Part shown: positions 16,984-29,177 of the stretch, piece by piece
Layout: every line of letters begins with the position of its first letter
How positions within the stretch are numbered: the stretch's first letter is position 1
Assembly (NCBI GenBank): GCA_035498555.1
Contig: DATKAB010000060.1
Location: 1 to 51,078 of the forward strand
Length of the DNA stretch: 51,078 nucleotides
DNA from: Candidatus Sulfotelmatobacter sp.
Lineage (GTDB): Bacteria > Eisenbacteria > RBG-16-71-46
Direction: 5' to 3'
The notes under the pieces: model-generated
Databases searched by the model: none
What the model saw: only the letters and a program-made list of their open reading frames with translations
What the model was told of the DNA's origin: nothing
Position numbers and translations under genes: made by a program

Positions 16984-18356
16984 CCTCTCGCCTCCTGGCT
17001 CGCGGGGCGGACCCGCAGCGTGAGTTGTCTCACTTCCGTCACCACCACGTCACTCCCCGCTTCCACGGGAACGTCGGACTCAGCATTCCACAGCTCACCA
17101 TGGATCTCGACCCGACCGCGCGGCGCCAGCCGCTCGAGCACTCGACCGCGCGTCCCCACCATTCCCCGCGCGCCGGTGGCGGCCGGACGCCGCTGTGCGC
17201 GAATCCCCGCTCCCACCACGAGCAGGAAGAAGCAGGCCGAGGCAATGGTCACGCCGATCACCACCGACCACGAGATCCTGGGGCCCCCCTGGAACAGGAT
17301 CAGCGAGCCGAGCAGCATGGAAACCACGCCGCCGGCGGCGAGTAGTCCGTGACTCGTCACCTTGATCTCGGCGATGAAGAACACGATGCCGAGCACGATC
17401 AACGCGATGCCGGCGGCGTTGATCGGGAGCGTCGACAGCGACAGGAACGCCAGGATCAGGCAGATCCCTCCCACCACGCCGGGCAGGATGGCGCCGGGAT
17501 TCTGCAGCTCGAAGATCAGCCCGTAGAAGCCGAGCATCAGCATGATGTAGGCGACGTTCGGGTCGTCGAGCAATCCCAGCAGCCGCTGGCGGAAGCCGGG
17601 CTCGATGCGATCCGATTCGAGCCCCTTCACCTCGAGGCGGTGGGTGGCGCTGCCGCGGCGCCAGGTGCGGCCGTCGGCCTTGGCCAGCAGCTCGGGGAGC
17701 GTGCTCGCGATCAGGTCCACGACATGGAGCTGGATCGCCTCGTCCTCGCTCACCGAAACCGCCTCGCGCACCGCGCGCTCGGCCCACACCGCGTTGCGCC
17801 CACGCTGCGCCGCCACGGTGCGCGCGAAGGCGGCGGCGTCGTTGGTGGCCTTGTGGGCGAGCGTCGAGTCCATGGCGCCCTGCATGCCGATCGGGGTCGC
17901 CGCGCCGATGTTGGTGCCGGGCGCCATCGCGGCGACGTCGCCGGCCATGGTGATGAAGACCCCGGCCGAGGCCGCGCGCGATCCGCCGGGCGCCACCCAG
18001 GTGAGGATGGGCACCTGGGAGGCCAGCATCTTCTTCACCATCTCGCGCATGCTCGACACCAGGCCGCCCGGGGTGTCGATCTCGACCACCAGCGCGCGAT
18101 ACTTCTCGCGCTCGGCGCGATCGATCGCCGAGGCGAGCGTCTCGGAGGTGATCGGCGAGATTGCGCCGTTGATGTCCACCACCAGCACGCGCGGCCGGGT
18201 CTCCGGCGCGGGCGTGATCGAACCGGTGTCGGGAGGGACCGCCGCGGGCTTCGCCGCGGCCGCGCCGTGGTGCATCGTCCTGGCGAACGCCGGGCTCGTG
18301 AGCGCCGGGCCCGCGAATGCGAGCAATGCAACCAGCGCGAGCGCGCGCAGCTTCAT
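16980..18356 (-). CDS. NfeD-family membrane serine protease (ClpP-like + NfeD OB domain)
   Basis: A 458-residue long-form NfeD (STOPP) protein. A signal peptide (residues 1-25) is followed by a ClpP/crotonase-like protease domain with [13 protein letters not shown], the nucleophile region [11 protein letters not shown] (S130) and a likely catalytic Lys169 in AHKATND, as in archaeal PH1510. Then come four to five transmembrane helices (residues ~265-390) and a C-terminal OB-fold ([26 protein letters not shown]). It should act in membrane quality control with the slipin downstream. Both ends overlap neighbours by 4 bases (ATGA with thrC at 18353-18356 and with slipin). Confidence 0.92.
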
Positions 18357-19576
18357 CGCGCCACCTCGGCGCGGCGCGCCAGCGCCTGCTTCCAGGCGTC
18401 GAGATACTTGAGCCCGCTGCCGGTGTTGTAGATCACCACCCGTTCCTCGCTCTTCACTTCACCGCTCGCGCGCAAGCGCTTCAACGCCGCCAGCGTAGCG
18501 CCTCCTTCGGGACAGGCAAAGCAGGCCTCCTCGCCCGCCAGCTCGAGCATCCCGTCCAGCATCTCCTCCTCGCTCACCGCCACCGCGGTGCCCCGGCTGT
18601 CGCGCACCGCAGCGAGAATCATGGTGTCCGCGAACGGCGCGGGAACCCGCAGCCCGCTCGCCACCGTCGCCGCGTTCTCCCACGGCCGCGCGGTGGAGGC
18701 GCCCGCTTCGAACGCTCGCACGATCGGCGCGCAACCCTGGACCTGCACCGCGATCAGCCGCGGCGCAGGCGCGGACATCCAGCCCAGTTCCTTCAGCTCG
18801 GCAAAGGCCTTCCACATCCCGACCAGCCCGGTGCCACCGCCGGTGGGATAGAAGATGACTTCCGGAGGCTTCCACCCGGTTTGCTCGGCGATCTCGTAGC
18901 CGAGCGTCTTCTTTCCCTCGAGTCGGAACGGCTCCTTGAAGGTCGCCACGTTCCACCACTCGCTGGCCGGCGCCCACTCGGCGAGCGCGCGCCCGGCGTC
19001 GGAGATGGTGCCAGGCACGAGCCGGACTTCGGCGCCATAGGCGGTCTGCTCGATCAGGAACGCCTCGGGAGTGTCGGTCGGAATGGTGATGCGGCACTTG
19101 AGGCCGGCCGCCGCAGCGTAGGCGGCTGCGGCGCTTCCGGCATTCCCGGCCGAGGGCAGCGCGATTCCCTTGAGCCCGAAGGCCAGGGCGCCGTTGACCG
19201 CGAGCGCGAGCCCGCGCGCCTTGAAGGAGTGGGTCGGGTTGGGCGATTCCTCCTTGAGCCACAGCTCGCGGACTCCCAGCTCGCGCGCGAGTCCCGGCAG
19301 AGGCAGTAGCGGCGTGCCGCCCTCCCCCAGCCGGACGGCGGCGAACTCCGGGGCGAACGGGAGCACCATGCGGTAGCGCCACAGATCCGACCCGAATCGG
19401 CCGAGGTCCTCACGCCGCACTTCGCGCCCGATCTGGGTGAGGTCGTAGCGGGCCACCAGCGGGCGCCCGCACGAGGTGCAGACGCTGCGCGGCCTGGAGA
19501 GGTCGAGGCTTGCGCCGCACTGCGAACAGTCGAGCGAGAGCAGGTGCCGCTGGAAGGCTGTGGGAGCGGAACTCAT
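18353..19576 (-). CDS. thrC: Threonine synthase
   Basis: A 407-residue PLP enzyme converting O-phosphohomoserine to threonine. An N-terminal zinc-ribbon-like motif (C17/C20 and C33/C36) precedes the fold type II core with the PLP Lys119 in THSFKARG, the substrate loop SAGNAGSAAAA and the phosphate-binding FYPTGGGTGLVG. The two-Cys-pair N terminus is typical of the plant/archaeal-type threonine synthase branch. No other threonine genes are nearby; it sits between rsgA and nfeD, overlapping nfeD by 4 bases. A TATCCT sequence 9 bases before the ATG may be a -10 box, so it may also have its own promoter. Confidence 0.9.
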   Translation of the reverse strand: MSSAPTAFQRHLLSLDCSQCGASLDLSRPRSVCTSCGRPLVARYDLTQIGREVRREDLGRFGSDLWRYRMVLPFAPEFAAVRLGEGGTPLLPLPGLARELGVRELWLKEESPNPTHSFKARGLALAVNGALAFGLKGIALPSAGNAGSAAAAYAAAAGLKCRITIPTDTPEAFLIEQTAYGAEVRLVPGTISDAGRALAEWAPASEWWNVATFKEPFRLEGKKTLGYEIAEQTGWKPPEVIFYPTGGGTGLVGMWKAFAELKELGWMSAPAPRLIAVQVQGCAPIVRAFEAGASTARPWENAATVASGLRVPAPFADTMILAAVRDSRGTAVAVSEEEMLDGMLELAGEEACFACPEGGATLAALKRLRASGEVKSEERVVIYNTGSGLKYLDAWKQALARRAEVAR

Positions 19577-19613: not shown

Positions 19614-20543
19614 TCACCTCTCGCCGCGCGCCTCGCGCCCCCGCTGCGGGCTCTGCTCCTGCTCCAGCTCGTCGCGCAGCTTCAAGTAAGACTCGAAGCG
19701 CCGCCTCGAAATGCCTCCCGACTCGACTGCGGCGCGCAGGGCACAGCCCGGCTCGCGCAGGTGCGAGCAGTCCGAGAACCGGCAGGCGCCGAGGAAGGGA
19801 CGGAATTCGGCGTAGGCCTGCTCGAGTTCGCGTGGGCCGATTCCCCACAGGCCGAATGCGCGCACTCCCGGGGTGTCGATCAATTCGAGATCGGGCGCGG
19901 GGCGCAACAGCCAGGCGGCGGTCGTGGTGTGGCGCCCCTTGCCGGTCTTGGGATTGACGCGCCCCTCGATCAGGTCGATGCCGGGCGCGAGCGCATTCAG
20001 GAGCGTGCTCTTCCCCACTCCGGAATGCCCGACCATCAGGCTGCGCCTCGACTGACACGAGTGGCGGAGCTCCTCCACGCCCTCACCGGATCTCGCGCAC
20101 AGCACGTGCACCGGATAGCCGGCGGCGCGGTAGGCCACCGCGACGTCTTCGGCGACGCCGGCTTCGGCGAGGTCCGCCTTGTTGAGGGCGACGCGTGCCG
20201 GGATCCCCGAATGCTCGGCCTGCGCCAGCACGCGATCGGCGAGGCCGGCCTTGAACTCCGGATGCGCCAGCGAGGCCACCAGCACCACCTGATCAAGATT
20301 GGCGGCCAGCACTTGTTCGGCCGGCTCATTGCCCGCGGCGCGGCGGGAGAACTGGTTCCGGCGCGGCGCCACGTTCTCCACCACCCGCCGGCCAGCTTCT
20401 TCCTCGATCCAGACTCGATCCCCGACCACCACGGTGTTGCCGAGCGCCTTCTTGGGCCCCATCACCCGCCCGCGCACCGTGGCCTCGATCAGCTCGCCAT
20501 CGGGGTCGAGCACCACGCAGCTGCCGAAGTCCACGCGCACCAC
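19614..20543 (-). CDS. rsgA: Ribosome small subunit-dependent GTPase A
   Basis: A late 30S-assembly GTPase of about 310 residues, circularly permuted as is typical. An N-terminal OB fold precedes the G domain with G4 LNKADL, G1 GHSGVGKSTLLN and G3 DTPGV, and a C-terminal zinc knuckle CRFSDCSHLREPGC. The start is uncertain. The GTG at 20543 is the first conventional codon, but the OB-fold first strand seems to begin a few residues earlier, and a CTG at 20576 overlaps the upstream kinase stop as CTGA, exactly like the ATGA/GTGA junctions elsewhere in this window. The CTG start would add 11 residues. No ribosome site is seen for either. Confidence 0.88.
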   Translation of the reverse strand: MVRVDFGSCVVLDPDGELIEATVRGRVMGPKKALGNTVVVGDRVWIEEEAGRRVVENVAPRRNQFSRRAAGNEPAEQVLAANLDQVVLVASLAHPEFKAGLADRVLAQAEHSGIPARVALNKADLAEAGVAEDVAVAYRAAGYPVHVLCARSGEGVEELRHSCQSRRSLMVGHSGVGKSTLLNALAPGIDLIEGRVNPKTGKGRHTTTAAWLLRPAPDLELIDTPGVRAFGLWGIGPRELEQAYAEFRPFLGACRFSDCSHLREPGCALRAAVESGGISRRRFESYLKLRDELEQEQSPQRGREARGER

Positions 20544-20572: not shown

Positions 20573-22003
20573 TCAGCCGAGGCCCCCGGCCCGGCTCTGC
20601 GGAAGGGTCACCGTGAAGCACGCGCCCTGACCGGGCGGGCTGGTGGCCACGATGCGCCCGCCGTGATTGGTAATGATGCGATACGAGGTCGAGAGCCCGA
20701 ACCCATGGCCCTCGGCCTTGGTGGTGAAGTGGGGTTCGAAGATGCGGGCCAGATTGGAGGGCGCGATGCCGCTGCCGGTATCGGTGACCACCAGCTTCAC
20801 CTGGCGCGTGCGTTCGTCCCACGAGCTGGTGACGGCGATGATCCTGTCGCCGATGGTCTTCTCCTTCATGGCGTCGGCGGCGTTCATGAACAGGTTGAGC
20901 AGCACCTGCTGGAGCTGGCCGGGATCGGCGCGCAGCTCGGGCGACGGCTCGCTGAGCCGGATGTCCCACTCCACCCCGTCGAAGCGATTCTGGGCGCGAA
21001 CGAACTCGATCGAGCGCTGCACCAGCGCGTTCACCTCGACGCGCTCGATGTGGAGCTCGGCCGCCGAGAAATCCATCAGCCCTTTGGACAGACCCTCCAT
21101 ACGCTTGGACTGCTCGAGAATGATCTGGGCATTGCGGGCGACGTCGTCGAACCTCTGGCGCTCGGCGTCGCGCGCCAGCATCTGGGCGCGCCCGCTGATC
21201 GCGACCAGCTGGTTGCGCAGCTCGTGTCCGATCTCGGCCGCCATTTCGCCCTTCGCGGCCATGCGCTCGGTGTGGATCAGCTGCTGTTGCGTGGAGCGCA
21301 GCTCGAGGTGCCGGCGCGCCGACTCGTGGAGCATCTGCAGCGGCACGTAGAACAGCACGACGCCGATGTAGCGGATCGCCTCGTACGAGATCACCATCAG
21401 GGGGCTCAAGAGGAACGCCGCTGCATCTTCGAGCAGGCGCTCGGGGTAGAACCAGTCCTCGCGCAGCGTCCGCAGGTAGGGACGCTCGCTCGACCATGCC
21501 ACCGCGACACCCACCAGCGCGCGATTGACCAGCAGGTAGGCCACGAACAACCCGGCGAACGCGGGCGCGAGGCGAAACGCCAGCGCCTCGGTTCCCAACT
21601 GGAGCTGCTGGCCTTCGATGCCGGTACGCATCCCACCCAACCACCCGAACACCGCGCTCGCGAACCACATGGTGATGGTGATCTGACCGGCGTTGAAGAT
21701 CGCGCGCACGAACGGCTTTCGCTGCACGAATACCACGGCGAACAGGGTGCTGATCGCGGCGATCCACATCGCCGGCGCCTGGCCCCACAGCGCGGCGGTG
21801 GTGAGGTTGGCGGTCGAAGCCATGCTGACGGTGCCGCTCTTCGAGATCGTGGCGAGCCACATGGTTTCAGACAGCACCGAGATCACGGCCCAGGCCACGT
21901 AGTGCGGCCACCGCTCCTCGAGCCGCTCGGGCACGCACAGGATCAACAGCAGTCCGGCGGCGATCGCCACCACGCTGACGTACAGGCGCAGCTTGAGGCT
22001 CAT
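20573..22003 (-). CDS. Orphan membrane sensor histidine kinase
   Basis: A 476-residue sensor kinase. About six to seven hydrophobic helices occupy residues 5-225 and form an integral-membrane sensor I cannot assign to a family. Then comes the dimerisation/phosphoacceptor helix (H260 in AAEIGHELRNQL) and an HATPase with the N box (QQVLLNLFMNAADAM), G1 (VTDTGSGI), F (IFEPHFTT) and G2 (GHGFGLSTS) motifs. No response regulator is encoded in the window, so the partner is elsewhere. The ATG at 22003 overlaps the epimerase stop by 4 bases (ATGA), tying it to the bacillithiol/D-glutamate-like gene train. The long frame upstream of 22003 is a shadow. Confidence 0.88.
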   Translation of the reverse strand: MSLKLRLYVSVVAIAAGLLLILCVPERLEERWPHYVAWAVISVLSETMWLATISKSGTVSMASTANLTTAALWGQAPAMWIAAISTLFAVVFVQRKPFVRAIFNAGQITITMWFASAVFGWLGGMRTGIEGQQLQLGTEALAFRLAPAFAGLFVAYLLVNRALVGVAVAWSSERPYLRTLREDWFYPERLLEDAAAFLLSPLMVISYEAIRYIGVVLFYVPLQMLHESARRHLELRSTQQQLIHTERMAAKGEMAAEIGHELRNQLVAISGRAQMLARDAERQRFDDVARNAQIILEQSKRMEGLSKGLMDFSAAELHIERVEVNALVQRSIEFVRAQNRFDGVEWDIRLSEPSPELRADPGQLQQVLLNLFMNAADAMKEKTIGDRIIAVTSSWDERTRQVKLVVTDTGSGIAPSNLARIFEPHFTTKAEGHGFGLSTSYRIITNHGGRIVATSPPGQGACFTVTLPQSRAGGLG

Positions 22004-23022
22004 GCGCCCGCTCGGGCGGGTTCGACGCCGAGTCCGGGCCGATCGCTCAGCACGATGCGACCCAGCTCGCGCGGCGCGCCGCGGAATGGATCGTGGCGAA
22101 GCAGCCAGTGGCCGTCGAGATCGAGGTAGTCGGCGAGCGGCGCGACCTGCGCGGCCGCCGAGAGCGCCAGGCTGGTCTCGACCATCGAACCCAGCAGGAT
22201 CTTGAGTCCCAGCGCGCGCGCCGCGTGGATCATGCGCAACATCTCGCGAATCCCGCCGGTCTTCATGATCTTGAGGTTGACGCCGTCGGCCCGACCGTGC
22301 AGCAGCCCCAGATCGAGCAGGGTGTGGCAGCTCTCGTCGGCGAACACCGGGATACCCGAGCGCTCGCGCACCCAGCGCAGGCCGTCGAGATCCTCGCGCG
22401 GGACGGGCTGCTCGACCAGCTCGATGCCGAGCGGCTCGATCTGGCGGAGCACGCGCACCGCCTCGGCCGGACTCCACGCGGTGTTGGCGTCCACTTGCAG
22501 CACGCCCTGATAGCGCGCGCGGATCCGCTTGAGATTGTCGACGTCGCCGAGCCCGCCGAGCTTCACCTTGATGCGCGGGAAATCCAGCACGGTCTCGAGC
22601 TTCTTCTCCATCTCATCGGGGCTCGCCATGCCGAGCGTGACGCACGACACCGGCGTGGTGCGGGCGTCAAGGCCGAGCAGCCGCCAGACGGGCAGGCCGA
22701 GCTTCTTCCCGATCCAGTCGTGCAGGGCCATGTCGATCGCCGCGTGCGCCGCGGCGTTGCCGCGCAGCACACCCGCCAGCCGCCGCTCGATCGCTTCGAG
22801 CGCGAACGGATCCTCGCCGAGATGCGGCGCCCATGCTTCGAGCGCAGCCGTGACCAGCTCGCGAGTCTCGCCGTAGTAGTGGGACGGAGAGGCCTCGCCG
22901 ATGCCTTCGATCCCGTCGTGCTCGATCCGCACCAGCGTGTTGTCATGGTGAGTGCGAGCGCCCACCGCGATGCGGAACTCGAAGGTGGTCTGGACGTCCA
23001 GCGGCTCATGCCGAAGTCGCAC
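22000..23022 (-). CDS. Dipeptide epimerase / N-acetyl-D-glutamate racemase-like (enolase superfamily)
   Basis: A 340-residue enolase-superfamily epimerase of the muconate-lactonizing subgroup. The catalytic lysine motif KVK is at 152-154, metal ligands are D178 (VDAN), E204 (VEQP) and D229 (ADES), the opposite-face Lys251 is in NLK, and the DLDG signature of dipeptide epimerases is at 301-304. Known members invert Ala-D/L-Glu from peptidoglycan, while DgcA, a member of this family, racemises N-acetyl-glutamate. The upstream gene is DUF1611, the family of DgcN (D-glutamate N-acetyltransferase), and the two overlap by 17 bases, so a DgcN/DgcA-type D-glutamate route is as likely as a murein-peptide role. 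Confidence 0.88.
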   Translation of the reverse strand: MRLRHEPLDVQTTFEFRIAVGARTHHDNTLVRIEHDGIEGIGEASPSHYYGETRELVTAALEAWAPHLGEDPFALEAIERRLAGVLRGNAAAHAAIDMALHDWIGKKLGLPVWRLLGLDARTTPVSCVTLGMASPDEMEKKLETVLDFPRIKVKLGGLGDVDNLKRIRARYQGVLQVDANTAWSPAEAVRVLRQIEPLGIELVEQPVPREDLDGLRWVRERSGIPVFADESCHTLLDLGLLHGRADGVNLKIMKTGGIREMLRMIHAARALGLKILLGSMVETSLALSAAAQVAPLADYLDLDGHWLLRHDPFRGAPRELGRIVLSDRPGLGVEPARAGA

Positions 23023-24091
23023 GTCGCCTCCTCGACTCGAGGGCCGCGATCAACGCCTGGGCCAGCGCCTCGGCACCAAAGCGCACCGGATCCGTCGCCG
23101 GCAGCCCGGTCTCGGCCGCCGCCGCCGCGCACGCGGCGCGCGCCGCCGGCTCGGCGAGCGCGGCGGTATGGAGCGCCACGCCGAGTGCGCGCGCCGGGTG
23201 AACCCAGGCGGCGGCGCTTTCGTACACGCGCACCAACGCCGGAAGCGACGCCACCGGGCGAGGCGCATCCCCGGGCCGGCCGTAGTGGATCAGCGCGTGG
23301 TCGGATTGATGGCAGAGAATCAACGCCGATGGGCAAGCGCCGTGGAGCAGACTCAGAGTCACCCCCGAGTAGCCGGGGTGGTGGAGCGCGCCCTGGCCCT
23401 CGACCAGCACGATGTCGGCGTCGCGCGCCGCTTCGAGCACCAGCTTCTCGACCGTCCCGGCCACGAAGTCGGCGGGGATCGCGTCGATCGCGGCGCCCTG
23501 GTCGGCGACGAAGATTCCGGTCTGGCCGGTGGCGACGAACGCCGCGCGCACGCCTCGAGCCTCGAGCGCGGCGCGGATCTCGAGCGCCGCGGTCATCTTG
23601 CCGACGTTGCAATCGCTGCCGACGGTGAGCGCGACCAGCGCGTCGAGGCCGGCCGCGCGCGCCGCCGCCACCGGCTTTCCGGCGGGCGGGCGGCGTACGT
23701 CGTGGATGGCGGCGCCGCTCGCCCGCGCGCGCTCGCGGAATTCGGGATCGTCTCCGAGAAACGCATGCAGTCCCGACAGCACGTCCCAGCGACGCGACAG
23801 CGCGTCGTTCACCAGCGCGCGCCAGGCGGGTGGAAGCTCGCCCCCCTGCGGAGCGATCCCGATCAGGATCGAATCCGCGCCGCGCGCCGCGGCCGCGTCG
23901 AGTTCGGCGAGCACCGGCACTCCGCCGCCCACCCCCACGCAATCCGCGGCGGTGCGCCCCGCGTGCGTCGAGTCGAGCACGGCCACGACCTCCTCTGGCC
24001 GGTAGCGCAGCACGCCGACCGCGGTCTTCGCCTCTCCCGGCGCGAAGTGACCTTCCGCGAGCAGCACCAGCCGGCGTTTCCTGCCCAGCAT
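23006..24091 (-). CDS. DUF1611 family protein (DgcN-like, putative D-glutamate N-acetyltransferase)
   Basis: A 361-residue DUF1611 protein. An N-terminal Rossmann-like domain (residues ~8-135) precedes a P-loop domain with Walker A GSDCNVGKM (158-166), RAAFVATGQTG, VEGQGALHHPGYSGVTLSLL and HQSDHALIHYG. DgcN of this family N-acetylates D-glutamate with acetyl-CoA, whose product is racemised by the epimerase-family partner DgcA. The adjacent overlapping epimerase gene supports that assignment here by context, not proof. It starts 2 bases after bshA ends, so it is in the bacillithiol operon. Confidence 0.85.
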   Translation of the reverse strand: MLGRKRRLVLLAEGHFAPGEAKTAVGVLRYRPEEVVAVLDSTHAGRTAADCVGVGGGVPVLAELDAAAARGADSILIGIAPQGGELPPAWRALVNDALSRRWDVLSGLHAFLGDDPEFRERARASGAAIHDVRRPPAGKPVAAARAAGLDALVALTVGSDCNVGKMTAALEIRAALEARGVRAAFVATGQTGIFVADQGAAIDAIPADFVAGTVEKLVLEAARDADIVLVEGQGALHHPGYSGVTLSLLHGACPSALILCHQSDHALIHYGRPGDAPRPVASLPALVRVYESAAAWVHPARALGVALHTAALAEPAARAACAAAAAETGLPATDPVRFGAEALAQALIAALESRRRRATSA

Positions 24092-24093
24092 CG

Positions 24094-25311
24094 TCAGCGG
24101 AACGACTCGTAGACCTGGATGTACCGACCCACCATCTCGTCGATGTTGAAACGCTCCCGCGCCACCCGTCTACCGGCGCGGCCCATCTGGCGCCGCAGCG
24201 ACGCGTTCTCCAGCAGGCGCAGCACCGAGCTGACGAACCCCGCGGTGTGGCCCGAGTCGTGGAGATACCCGGTGACGCCGTGGTCGATCACCTCGGGCAG
24301 CCCGCCCGCGTTGGACGCCACCACCGGCACCTCCGCACTCATCGCCTCGAGCGCCACCAGCCCGAAGCTCTCGGAGGAACTCGGTAGGAGAAAGACATCG
24401 GCAAGCGGAAGGAGTTCCTCCATGCAATCCTGATTTCCGAGAAACAGGACGTCGCGCTCCACCCGCAGCTCTCGCGCCAGCTGCTCCGCACCGGCCTTTT
24501 CCGGCCCGTCTCCGACCATCACGAGCTTGGAAGGAATCCGCCGGCGCACCTCGGCGAAGATGTGAATCACCTGCGGGATGTTCTTGACCGGACGGAAGTT
24601 CGAGACGTGCATCAGCACCCGCGACTCGGGTGGCGCCAGCCGCAGCCCCGAGCGGCGGCGCGGCGCGAACACCGCCGGATCCACGAAGTTGTAGATCACT
24701 TCGATCGGCCGCGTGATCCCGAAGGTCTCCTCGGCCCGGTCCTTGAGGAAGCGGCTCACCGCCGTCACCCGATCACTGTTCTGGATGCTGAACTGGGTGA
24801 CCCGGAAGTAGGCTGGCTCCACGCCCACCACCGTGATGTCGGTGCCGTGCAGCGTGGTCATCACCCCGAGCTGCTTCGGCAGCAGCAGCTGGCGCGCCAG
24901 ATAGGCGCTGGTAGCGAACGGCATCGCGTAGTGGACATGGATCAGGTCGAGCTTGTAGTGCTCGGCCACCTCCACGATCTTGGTGGTGAGCGCGAGATTG
25001 GCCGGAGTCTGATCGAACACCGGGTACTCGGCCGGCATCGCCTCGTGGAAGAACACGTTGGATTCGAAGGCGCGCAGTCGGAACGGCAGTCGATGCGCGA
25101 TGAAGTGGATCTCGCAGCCGCGGCGCGCCAGCGCCATGCCCAGCTCGGTCGCCACCACGCCGCTTCCACCGAAGTGCGAATAGCAGACGATGCCGATGCG
25201 CAGCTTCGGATGCACCGCGCCGGCGAGGCGCGGCGCGGGCTTGCCGCGTCGGCGCGGACTCGCATCGGCACCGGCCGCGCGCGATCGCGTGACCCGCCGT
25301 CCCGCGCTCAT
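24094..25311 (-). CDS. bshA: N-acetyl-alpha-D-glucosaminyl L-malate synthase (bacillithiol step 1)
   Basis: A 405-residue GT4 glycosyltransferase joining UDP-GlcNAc and L-malate, the first step of bacillithiol synthesis. Family markers are GIVCYSHFGGSGVVATELG, HVHYAMPFATSAYLARQ, TTLHGTDITVVG, the NFRPVKN segment and the retaining-GT E(x7)E motif in SSSESFGLVALEAM. Immediate neighbours bshB and bshC make the specific assignment firm. An arginine-rich extension of about 35 residues precedes the domain; translation may start later. The ATG overlaps the bshB stop by 4 bases (ATGA, 25308-25311). Confidence 0.95.
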   Translation of the reverse strand: MSAGRRVTRSRAAGADASPRRRGKPAPRLAGAVHPKLRIGIVCYSHFGGSGVVATELGMALARRGCEIHFIAHRLPFRLRAFESNVFFHEAMPAEYPVFDQTPANLALTTKIVEVAEHYKLDLIHVHYAMPFATSAYLARQLLLPKQLGVMTTLHGTDITVVGVEPAYFRVTQFSIQNSDRVTAVSRFLKDRAEETFGITRPIEVIYNFVDPAVFAPRRRSGLRLAPPESRVLMHVSNFRPVKNIPQVIHIFAEVRRRIPSKLVMVGDGPEKAGAEQLARELRVERDVLFLGNQDCMEELLPLADVFLLPSSSESFGLVALEAMSAEVPVVASNAGGLPEVIDHGVTGYLHDSGHTAGFVSSVLRLLENASLRRQMGRAGRRVARERFNIDEMVGRYIQVYESFR

Positions 25312-26024
25312 GACTCGTCCCCCGCCCCGATCAACAAGCGCGCGTCGTGAACCCCGAGCGGGGCGCGCGTGCGGTAGCCTTCGCCGTGGCGCGCGCCGAT
25401 CGCCGCGCCCATCACGCGAGCGCGCGCCTCGATCTCGTCGAGGAAGCCGGGCTGCGTCAGGTAGGTGGTCGGCCCGCGGTCGGGGTCGAGCTGGCTCCGG
25501 TGCTCCCTCAGCGCCCGCATGCGCTTCTCCCAGACTTCGCTGACATCGACGATGAGATGCGGCCGCACGCTGCTCCGATACAACGCGAACAGCAGGCGCG
25601 ATGGCCGATGGCGCTCGCCGGGCGCCGCGAAACGGACCAGACCCGACAGGTAGCAGGCGCGCGCCACGAGATGCGAGGCCTCGACGTGATCGGGATGCGC
25701 GTCATCGGCGGAAGGCGCCACCACCAGTCGCGGGCGATGGGTGCGCAGCGCGGTCACGACTTCGATGAGCTGGGCGCGCAAGTGGCGATCGAGCCCGGTG
25801 TCGGGCAGCTCGAGATTCTCGCGAACGGTGACCCCCAGCACCCGCGCGGCGTTGCGCGCCTCGACCGCGCGCTCTTCGACGGTGCCGCGGCTCGCGGCCT
25901 CGCCCCGCGTCAGGTCCACGATGCCGACCGCGTGGCCATGGGCGGCCAGCCGCGCCGCCAACCCGGCGGAGGTCAGCTCGACGTCGTCGGGATGGGCGCC
26001 GAAGAACAGCGCGTCGAGCGCCAT
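25308..26024 (-). CDS. bshB1: Bacillithiol biosynthesis deacetylase
   Basis: A 238-residue LmbE/PIG-L zinc deacetylase that removes acetate from GlcNAc-malate in step 2 of bacillithiol synthesis. The zinc/catalytic motif AHPDD (H11, D13, D14) opens the protein, and the third ligand is in APSADDAHPDHVEAS. The C-terminal region with REHRSQLDP and GEGYRTRAPLGVHD matches BshB1-type enzymes. The ATG at 26024 shares one base with the bshC stop (TGATG), and the 3' end overlaps bshA. The open frame upstream to 27698 is a shadow of bshC. Confidence 0.95.
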   Translation of the reverse strand: MALDALFFGAHPDDVELTSAGLAARLAAHGHAVGIVDLTRGEAASRGTVEERAVEARNAARVLGVTVRENLELPDTGLDRHLRAQLIEVVTALRTHRPRLVVAPSADDAHPDHVEASHLVARACYLSGLVRFAAPGERHRPSRLLFALYRSSVRPHLIVDVSEVWEKRMRALREHRSQLDPDRGPTTYLTQPGFLDEIEARARVMGAAIGARHGEGYRTRAPLGVHDARLLIGAGDES

Positions 26025-27649
26025 CACAGCTCCAGCACGGCGTGCTCGAGCACGCCTTCGGCGAGCCGGCGCGCGTGCTCGGCGGCCAGCTCCTTCAACT
26101 CGTCGGCCACCGCGCGCCCGCGATACGCGACCACCTCCAGCGAGGCGAGGCGGCGCTCCTGAAGCTTGTCGCCGGGCAACAGGTAGTAGCGAAGGCGCAG
26201 CCATTCGGGATGCTGGCGCTCGAGCTTGTGGCGCACCTTGCCGGTCAGCCCCTCGAGCAGCCGCTGGAACTGGAAGTCGACCTTGCCGCGCGCCGATTCC
26301 ACCATCTGCGGCAAACTGGGATCCAGCGAACGCGCGGCGTCGGCGAATTCGGCGAGCCCCTCGAGGGTGGCGCGGTGGGCACGCTCGAGCGCCGCTCGCG
26401 GGCCCGCCGGCACCTCGCGCTCGGCGAACCCGCGCAGCACACCGTCCGCGTCCGCCACCACCGCGAACGGATCGGCGCCCGCCTGCTCGAGCAGCTCGAT
26501 CGCGGCCGGCGGCATCCAGGTCGCCGACAGCCGCGGCACCGGACAGGCCGGGACCACCTCGAGCGCCTCGAAGGCCTCGCGGAGCTGCGCCAGATAGGCG
26601 AGCTCGCCCGGTCCACACGCCATCGCCACCGTCGGCAGCACGGCGTCTTGCACCTCGGGCCTCAGGGCGACACTTGGACTCAGAGTCATCCGGTGCCGGC
26701 TGGAATCCGCGAGCGCCTCGTTCAGGTCGCACTTCCGGCGCACGCCGTTCTCGATCGCGAATACGAACGAATCGAGGGCGCTGTCGGCGAGCGCGCGATG
26801 AGCGCCACGGCGTTCGAGCTCGTCGCCGGCCGCGCGCACGCGTGCGCCGATCGTGTCGGCTCGCGCGAGATAGCGATCGATCACCGGGCGCGCCGCCTCG
26901 CGGAACGCAGCCAGGCGCGGGTCCACCACCACCAGGCCGTCGCCGGCGAACAACTGCAGCATCAGCGCGCCGTGTGCCTCGCCGAAGTCGCGAGCGCCCT
27001 GACGGGCCGCGGCCAGCAGCCCTCCGGTCTCGGCGACGTGCGGCAGCCCCGCCCACACCCTCATCGCCTCGGTCTCGAGCGCGCGGAGCGAATCGAGCCC
27101 GATGTGACCCACCAGCCCGCCCTCGACGCGGGCCTCGTCGGGCAGCGCCAGCTCGCGCAGGGTCAGCCCGGAATCCGCGAGCGAGGCGCCGCGGATCTCG
27201 GCGAAATCGGAATCCTCGCCGTGCATCCAGAACACCGGCACGCAGGGAACGCCCGTGCGCCGCTCGACTTCGATGGCGAGCCCCAGCGTCGCCGCGGTCT
27301 TGTGCAGCGAGTACAGCGGACCCCCGAGTGGCGCGGGCTGCTGGCCGGCGATCGCCGCCACGGCCTCTCCGCGCGCCAGCCGGTCGAGATTGGCGAGGGT
27401 GGCGCCGGAAGCACCCAGACGGCGATGCAGCTCGAGCAGCTCGCGCGCCAGCGCCGCCGGCAGCGGACCGCGCTTGCGTTCGGCCAGCTGGCGCAGCGCG
27501 CCGGTGTTGGACCACAGAGTCGCGAATCGTTGCACCGCGAGCGCCCCGCCCCGCGCGATCTGATCCGCGAGCGGATCGTAAAGTCGGTCCCAAGGCGGCT
27601 CGATCGAGGCCGGAACCCGGGCGCGAACGGTGAGCGTGCGCGTGCTCAT
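26024..27649 (-). CDS. bshC: Putative cysteine ligase BshC (bacillithiol step 3)
   Basis: A 541-residue BshC, adding cysteine to GlcN-malate to complete bacillithiol. Family signatures include IAGQQPAPLGGPLYSLHK, the nucleotide-like site VPVFWMHGEDSDFAEI, RPEVQDAVLPTVAMACGPGE and ELAYLAQLREAFE, then a C-terminal coiled coil. Length matches the family (about 540). The ATG at 27649 (MSTRTL) is chosen over one 60 bases upstream because the extension lacks family features; no clear ribosome site. It is the first gene of the operon bshC-bshB-bshA-DUF1611-epimerase-kinase. Confidence 0.95.
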   Translation of the reverse strand: MSTRTLTVRARVPASIEPPWDRLYDPLADQIARGGALAVQRFATLWSNTGALRQLAERKRGPLPAALARELLELHRRLGASGATLANLDRLARGEAVAAIAGQQPAPLGGPLYSLHKTAATLGLAIEVERRTGVPCVPVFWMHGEDSDFAEIRGASLADSGLTLRELALPDEARVEGGLVGHIGLDSLRALETEAMRVWAGLPHVAETGGLLAAARQGARDFGEAHGALMLQLFAGDGLVVVDPRLAAFREAARPVIDRYLARADTIGARVRAAGDELERRGAHRALADSALDSFVFAIENGVRRKCDLNEALADSSRHRMTLSPSVALRPEVQDAVLPTVAMACGPGELAYLAQLREAFEALEVVPACPVPRLSATWMPPAAIELLEQAGADPFAVVADADGVLRGFAEREVPAGPRAALERAHRATLEGLAEFADAARSLDPSLPQMVESARGKVDFQFQRLLEGLTGKVRHKLERQHPEWLRLRYYLLPGDKLQERRLASLEVVAYRGRAVADELKELAAEHARRLAEGVLEHAVLEL

Positions 27650-28013
27650 CCGGCCAACGGCGGACACGAGGGGCGCAAAGCGGACCGGCGAAGGGCAACC
27701 TCGAGGCAACGGAGCATCGGAGGCGGCATCTTAGGCTCTGTTCGAGAATGCCGCACGGGCCCGGACGGGAATGACCGTCCGCGCTTCATTGCCAGTCGTC
27801 GACAGCCGAGCCACCGCCAGTCTCCTCCTCGCGCTTTGCCCCGCCAGTCATTCCCGCTCGGCGTGCTCGCGGGGCATTCTCAGCCAGAGCCTAGCCCGAA
27901 GCGCTCGCCAGCCGCCACCGCGCCCGCCGGCACCCCGGGCGCCGCGACTCGGCGCCGGATCGCCCGCATCCTTGACGCTCTCCTCGCGCTTCCGACAATA
28001 TCGCCCGCCCGCC
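27650..28013. promoter_or_regulatory. Divergent intergenic region between bshC and the antiporter gene
   Basis: This 364-base gap holds no convincing gene. For bshC, a TAAGAT -10-like box lies at 27733-27728 (minus strand), about 79 bases from the start, with a weak -35. For the antiporter gene, TTGACG (27972-27977), 18 bases and CAATAT (27996-28001) precede the ATG at 28014 by 12 bases. I see no operator repeat. Confidence 0.4.
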
Positions 28014-29177
28014 ATGGATCCCAATGGCCTGATGCCCGATGACGTGCGACGCTCGGCGCTGCACGCGTTGTGGACCTTTCCTTCGATCCTGGCCAGCGCC
28101 TTCGTGGTGGCCTGGGGCGCGGAGGCGGCCCAGTTCTTCGTCTCGCAGGGCCTGGCGCTGGCGCTGCTCGCCTGGGTTCAAGTGCTTCCGGAATTCGCCG
28201 TCGAGGCGGTGATTGCCTGGCACCGCGACATTCCGCTCATGACCGCGAATTTCACCGGCGCGCTGCGGCTGTTGACCGGGCTCGGCTGGCCGACGATCTG
28301 GCTGGTGTCGGCGTTCACCCGGCGCAGCCACGGCGAGCGCTTCTGGGACCCGATCCGGCTCGACGAGGAGCATGCGGCCGAAGTGGTCGGACTCGCCCCG
28401 GCGTTGCTCTATTTCGTCTGGATCATCGCGCGCGGATCCATCGGACTGGCGGACGCGGCGGTCTTGATCGGACTCTACGCATCGTATCTCGTGTTCCTGA
28501 ATCGCCTGCCGTCGCGCGAACGCGAGGCGCTGGACGACGCCGAGGCTCCGGTGCGCGCCGTGATGTCGCTGCCTTCACGGCTGCGCGCGGTCACGATCGT
28601 CGCCCTGTTCCTGGCCGGCGGCGGCGCCCTCTACCTGGTGGCGCATCCGTTCCTCGAGAGCACGCTGGCGCTGGCGACGGTGCTGGGCGTTTCGCAGTTC
28701 GTGTTCGTGCAGTGGGTCGCCCCCTTCCTCTCCGAGTTTCCGGAGTTCGTCACCACCACCTACTGGGCGCGCTCCCACGGCAAGGGCGGCATGGCGCTGA
28801 TGAACATGGCCAGCTCCAACATCAATCAATGGACGGTGCTGGCGGCGATGATCCCGATCGTCTATTCGCTGTCGCTGGGGGCTCCTTCGTCGGTGCCGCT
28901 CGAGGAGCACCGCGTCGAGCTGTGGCTGACGCTGCTCCAGGGGACGCTCGGGCTCGTGATCCTCTGCAACTTCACCTTCGAGGCCTACGAGGCCCTCGGT
29001 CTCCTCGCCGCCTGGGTCGCGCAATTCCTGCGCCCGGACTGGCGCGAGGAGATGGTGGCCGTGTACGCGATCTGGCTCGCCGTCGAGCTGGTCAGCACCC
29101 TGTGGCGGCCGGGGCGGCTGCGGGCCTTCCAGGTGTTTCCGCAGCTCTGGAATCAGGCCGCGCGCCCGAGGGCCTGA
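28014..29177 (+). CDS. Sodium/calcium exchanger-like cation antiporter (CaCA superfamily)
   Basis: A 387-residue membrane protein with about ten helices and two inverted repeats typical of CaCA antiporters. The alpha-repeat motifs are visible as VLPEFAVEAVIAW (residues ~58-70) and FLSEFPEFVTTTYWARS (~240-256), each carrying the acidic residue that binds the cation, followed by N-rich turns (MTANFTGALRL and MNMASSNINQWT). It probably exchanges Ca2+ for Na+ or H+. The ATG at 28014 starts the domain; the frame upstream to 27771 looks non-coding. No Shine-Dalgarno; it ends 9 bases from the convergent murJ. Confidence 0.87.
   Translation: MDPNGLMPDDVRRSALHALWTFPSILASAFVVAWGAEAAQFFVSQGLALALLAWVQVLPEFAVEAVIAWHRDIPLMTANFTGALRLLTGLGWPTIWLVSAFTRRSHGERFWDPIRLDEEHAAEVVGLAPALLYFVWIIARGSIGLADAAVLIGLYASYLVFLNRLPSREREALDDAEAPVRAVMSLPSRLRAVTIVALFLAGGGALYLVAHPFLESTLALATVLGVSQFVFVQWVAPFLSEFPEFVTTTYWARSHGKGGMALMNMASSNINQWTVLAAMIPIVYSLSLGAPSSVPLEEHRVELWLTLLQGTLGLVILCNFTFEAYEALGLLAAWVAQFLRPDWREEMVAVYAIWLAVELVSTLWRPGRLRAFQVFPQLWNQAARPRA

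Follow-up and report, generated by a model that had tools for sequence, protein, structure and literature searches.

The window, i.e., the whole stretch of 51,078 nucleotides analyzed here, carries a complete bacillithiol gene set (bshC-bshB1-bshA) that is directly followed by a DUF1611 gene, the gene of an enolase-superfamily epimerase (MLE), and a membrane histidine kinase gene. This gene run can be considered real and old. Its adjacency goes beyond chance, as this order is found again in 18 of the 20 genomes of the window's own family and in an order-level relative. As the best explanation, held tentatively with a probability of about 0.4, we propose that the six genes form one operon, combining complete bacillithiol synthesis by BshA, BshB1, and BshC with a cytosolic module for the salvage of D-glutamate compounds and the membrane histidine kinase. 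Thiol synthesis and the salvage pair would thereby be tied by shared expression, not by shared chemistry.

All genes of the run are encoded on the minus strand. The bacillithiol cysteine-adding enzyme BshC is located at 26024..27649, its longest open reading frame beginning at 27709 with a TTG start (27649 or 27709 to 26024), followed by the GlcNAc-malate deacetylase BshB1 (25308..26024) and the GlcNAc-malate synthase BshA (24094..25311). All three scored above the curated cut-offs, BshB1 with 243.6 bits (TIGR04001, cut-off 182.5), BshA with 490.5 bits (TIGR03999, cut-off 273.7), and BshC narrowly with 270.4 bits (TIGR03998, cut-off 265.8; also PF10079), confirming the complete set claimed by an earlier, sequence-only reading of this DNA. 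The bsh genes overlap by 1 nt (bshC/bshB1) and 4 nt (bshB1/bshA), bshA and DUF1611 are separated by a gap of 2 nt, and overlaps of 17 nt (DUF1611/MLE) and 4 nt (MLE/kinase) complete the block, so that its joining to the DUF1611, epimerase, and kinase genes was likewise borne out. The range assigned to the unit by the sequence-only reading (22000-27649), in contrast, omits the kinase (20573..22003), and the run extends, unmentioned there, into rsgA (about 19614..20543; TIGR00157 202 bits, cut-off 100) and the threonine synthase gene thrC (18353..19576; PRK08197 511.7 bits, cut-off 303). No terminator-like site was detected at any junction of the bshC-to-kinase block and no Rfam match anywhere in the window. 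Divergent from bshC, a Na/Ca exchanger-family gene (27771-29177, plus strand) adjoins murJ (30803-29187). This murJ-exchanger order was seen again in many genomes of the family, some of them having extra DNA before bshC.

To follow the run across the phylum, 47 genomes, all drafts, were assigned to eleven families (f1-f11). The window's own family (f1) comprises 20 genomes from 13 genera; the order-level relative G020 represents f2 and G021 represents f3. Within f1, the DUF1611 gene follows bshA in 18 of the 20 genomes, MLE is present in all 20, and the kinase is next in 19, the contig of the remaining one (G011) stopping inside MLE. The adjacency of bshA, DUF1611, and epimerase, for which absence from all relatives had been named as the refuting outcome, was thus found in these 18 genomes and in G020. 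Beyond the phylum, 80 named loci often show DUF1611 followed by MLE, while neither bsh nor pgeF was found near DUF1611 in any of them, apart from one weak glycosyltransferase match (L048). A DUF1611-MLE pair on a contig titled as a Bifidobacterium breve MAG (L095) sits on long branches, and the organism name may be wrong.

Assignment of the DUF1611 protein (23006..24091; PF07755 and PF17396) as a putative, DgcN-like D-Glu N-acetyltransferase is based on its similarity to PDB 7xrj (E 3e-57), with which it shares the P-loop and core motifs. Its score of 253.2 bits stays below the NCBIfam DgcN equivalog cut-off (480 bits), which 7xrj passes with 521 bits. The MLE (22000..23022; PF02746 and PF13378, MR_MLE_N/C), annotated as a DgcA-like dipeptide epimerase or N-acyl-Glu racemase, reached 238.5 bits on the DgcA equivalog model (cut-off 400). 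Failure at these cut-offs was considered as proof against DgcN/DgcA likeness and dropped: DUF1611-MLE pairs of haloarchaea, in which the pathway is reported to occur according to the title of reference 27 in PMC12363236, score alike (254-261 and 249-256 bits), so that the cut-offs do not decide DgcN/DgcA identity. The pair resembles the D-glutamate pathway of DgcN and DgcA (Yu et al. 2023, ISME J, as cited in PMC12363236) in gene order, haloarchaeal-level scores, and conserved P-loop core. It differs from it in falling below both equivalog cut-offs, in being embedded in a putative bsh operon, in a changed loop residue of the racemase, and in a racemase outliving the loss of DUF1611 in two relatives.

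Nearest among solved structures to the MLE is 3iji (E 5e-70), the epimerase BT_1313. As in BT_1313, YcjG, and YkfB, all catalytic residues are present, i.e., the KxK lysines K152/K154 and the second lysine K251, the metal ligands D178/E204/D229, and the DxD motif D301xD303. On the two NCBIfam L-Ala-D/L-Glu epimerase models, however, only 145.3 bits (the YcjG model, cut-off 343) and 132.8 bits (cut-off 500) were reached, both failing, which leaves DgcA as the best-scoring model; the adjoining gene, DUF1611, is a further difference from YcjG and YkfB. Almost every other DUF1611-linked MLE carries I[AS]R in its 20s loop, the arginine being an empirical feature of our alignment and not a published criterion. 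In f1, with the exception of G018, this arginine is replaced by V, H, L, or S, and R or K is found at position 23/24 instead; a basic residue at 23 also occurs in BT_1313. This change marks the f1 enzymes as a distinct subfamily but does not tell the substrate. Altered loop and strand motifs (SCVTLGM, LGSM) were noted in these enzymes as well.

A strict DgcN-DgcA route is the foremost alternative to our reading. DUF1611 would N-acetylate D-Glu, and N-acetyl-D-Glu would be the sole substrate of MLE, racemized to N-acetyl-L-Glu that enters glutamate or arginine metabolism. The wide distribution of the DUF1611-MLE pairing across phyla, the haloarchaeal-like scores, the conserved 7xrj core motifs, and DgcA as best model all argue for it. 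The fate of the pair within f1, together with the lost I[AS]R arginine, argues against it. In G003, no DUF1611 gene was found anywhere in the assembly, and in G010 only a remnant of 88 residues (L121 3947-4213) is left between intact bshA and MLE, lacking residues about 54 to 331 including the P-loop. Because the MLE tree separates the two genomes, DUF1611 appears to have been lost twice. Their MLEs are full-length and, with dN of about 0.15-0.22 and dS of about 0.5-1.0, evolve similarly to those of the other genomes. Since two relatives without intact DUF1611 thus keep MLE under purifying selection, we suggest with modest confidence that MLE can work without DUF1611. The reverse pattern also occurs and speaks against our reading, as does the best match to DgcA: MLE is apparently split by a frameshift in G009 (C79 15411-16443) and G014 (C307 6302-7260), with DUF1611 intact, although this could be an assembly error. 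All these cases, DUF1611 losses and MLE frameshifts, rest on draft genomes. Taken together, the strict route appears rather unlikely, yet it has to be regarded as a serious rival. Of the D-glutamate N-acetyltransferase/racemase pairing recognized by the sequence-only reading, the homology to DgcN and DgcA stands; the route in its strict form is weakened.

Supply of D-Glu for peptidoglycan was judged an unnecessary role for the pair, since glutamate racemase (MurI) is found above cut-off in 38 of the 47 genomes including the window's, making this supply independent of it. In the classical recycling pathway, MpaA cuts the tripeptide to L-Ala-D-Glu, which is epimerized by YcjG (PMC9928106). That pathway uses an S66 LD-carboxypeptidase, an enzyme missing from all 25 genomes of f1, f2, f3, and f8 but encoded in 12 of the remaining 22. 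NlpC/P60 proteins show the opposite distribution (23/25 vs 9/22), the two being nearly mutually exclusive between f5/f9 and f1/f2/f8. As this distribution runs along family lines, with descent as a confounder, it can be taken as a hint only, and the NlpC/P60 proteins may serve solely as wall hydrolases. With S66 missing from all genomes having the locus and NlpC/P60 present in most, a role in murein dipeptide metabolism nevertheless seems no less likely than the strict DgcN-DgcA route. In the preferred reading, MLE would epimerize the glutamyl alpha-carbon, most likely in L-Ala-D-Glu freed from murein stem peptides. As the genome lacks S66, this release is proposed to be performed perhaps by an NlpC/P60 endopeptidase, which by analogy could take the part of MpaA. 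DUF1611 would represent an optional branch, N-acetylating free D-Glu for conversion into N-acetyl-L-Glu by the same racemase.

A second alternative explains the run by position. The bsh genes, DUF1611-MLE, the kinase, rsgA, and thrC would be members of a housekeeping string sharing a promoter without functional tie. Indeed, the string conserved in f1 extends over rsgA, thrC, and a number of additional genes and keeps murJ upstream, so that synteny within f1 alone provides weak evidence for a connection: genes with no obvious thiol tie are equally kept. In Bacillus subtilis, bshB1 and bshA reside in the mixed seven-gene operon ypjD-dapB-mgsA-bshB1-bshA-cca-birA (PMC5372718), a precedent for bsh genes among functionally mixed neighbors, of which dapB belongs to the diaminopimelate route. 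In contrast to the window, bshC is found there in another operon, and DUF1611, epimerase, and kinase genes are missing from the seven. Within the phylum, bsh and DUF1611-MLE each occur without the other: G021 has DUF1611-MLE without bsh, and none of the 22 genomes of f4-f7 and f9-f11, most of which carry bsh, has DUF1611. Against a merely positional origin, only the six-gene core survives at order level. G020 shows exactly bshC-bshB1-bshA-DUF1611-MLE-kinase with 34-51% identity, whereas murJ, rsgA, and thrC are absent from the locus and the rsgA homologues lie on other contigs. Conservation of rsgA next to the kinase, like that of thrC, is restricted to f1, and none of the loci examined outside this family showed thrC beside rsgA. 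This core may be regarded as better evidence than the synteny within f1, although from one genome only. Together with a second DUF1611 lineage next to bsh in f8, it counts against the positional explanation, which we regard as rather unlikely but likewise as a serious rival.

In respect to this second lineage, two f8 genomes (G026, G032) show bshC-bshB1-bshA, then pgeF on the opposite strand, then DUF1611 and MLE, placing DUF1611 one gene away from bshA; in a third (G029), two halves are found at contig ends in compatible order. Because of the strand of pgeF, the f8 arrangement is a neighborhood, not a single operon. A single clade of the f8, f1, and f2 DUF1611 proteins was rejected (AU p=0.003; 33 rows, quick tree), and with it simple descent of a single bsh-DUF1611 cluster in these families. 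The association may either have arisen twice, or the gene may have been replaced in place.

The kinase (20573..22003), with a MASE9-like N-terminal part, carries HisKA and HATPase_c domains, and no response regulator is found among the annotated genes of the run. Relatives occur in f4, f5, f6, f7, f9, and f11, all without DUF1611. In f6, f9, and f11, one lies close to bshA; in f5, one is found close to pgeF at a distance from bsh. Since these families lack DUF1611/MLE and the kinase even occurs away from bsh, it is part of the neighborhood independently of the DUF1611-MLE pair. In the preferred reading, it probably acts via an unlinked regulator. The coordinated envelope/redox-stress unit suggested by the sequence-only reading is consequently unproven: synteny in f1 equally holds for rsgA, thrC, and further unrelated genes, the kinase is found without DUF1611/MLE and even without bsh, and G021 has the pair without bsh.

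The neighborhood in other families of the class provides some indication in favor of an envelope theme. The peptidoglycan editing factor gene pgeF (PF02578), whose product edits UDP-MurNAc-peptide precursors (PMC8844914), is a repeated neighbor of bsh, the kinase, or DUF1611-MLE in f3, f5, f6, f8, f9, and f11 (L139 10549-11544, L141 10174-10977, L130 8595-9428, L132 15180-15746; also L151-L155), and an M23 murein endopeptidase gene follows the kinase in f6, f9, and f11. In f1, pgeF is located away from the locus (contig C3 in the window's genome). The recurrence of both genes argues in favor of this theme. Extended to the class, the locus could be a condensed form of a cluster of bsh, pgeF, M23, and DUF1611-MLE that would join bacillithiol synthesis, murein precursor editing, murein opening, and D-Glu/dipeptide salvage, one sensor kinase co-regulating thiol status and wall turnover; we consider this broader view distinctly improbable. 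An AI-2E family membrane protein (PF01594) was additionally observed directly after the kinase in G020 (L129 10292-11326), a few kb from MLE in f8 (L130 14817-16163), and directly before DUF1611 in several Gemmatimonadota (L042 8853-9962).

An action of the pair on compounds that derive from bacillithiol or contain cysteine, e.g., by N-acetylation or epimerization of breakdown products, and not on D-Glu is highly improbable: apart from the adjacency, only the changed loop and strand motifs of the f1 MLE suggest it. G021, in contrast, has the pair without bsh, no bsh genes lie near it in the 80 loci outside the phylum, and DxD together with a basic residue at 23/24 suits acidic substrates of the dipeptide-like type, similarly to BT_1313.

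A literature search, with subscription papers mostly outside its scope, retrieved no published description of the bsh-DUF1611-MLE-kinase arrangement. This agrees, as weak evidence of novelty, with its designation as apparently undescribed. A joint function of the two pathways is hypothetical, and as a caution, order conservation throughout a family was not sufficient on its own to distinguish the core from unrelated neighbors. If the tie is functional, it would represent a genetic link of a low-molecular-weight thiol to murein-peptide or D-Glu turnover and would indicate where the signal of the orphan kinase might be sought. Even without a functional tie, f1 provides a natural experiment on the dependence of a DgcA-like racemase on its DgcN-like partner, because two relatives lost DUF1611 and kept the racemase.
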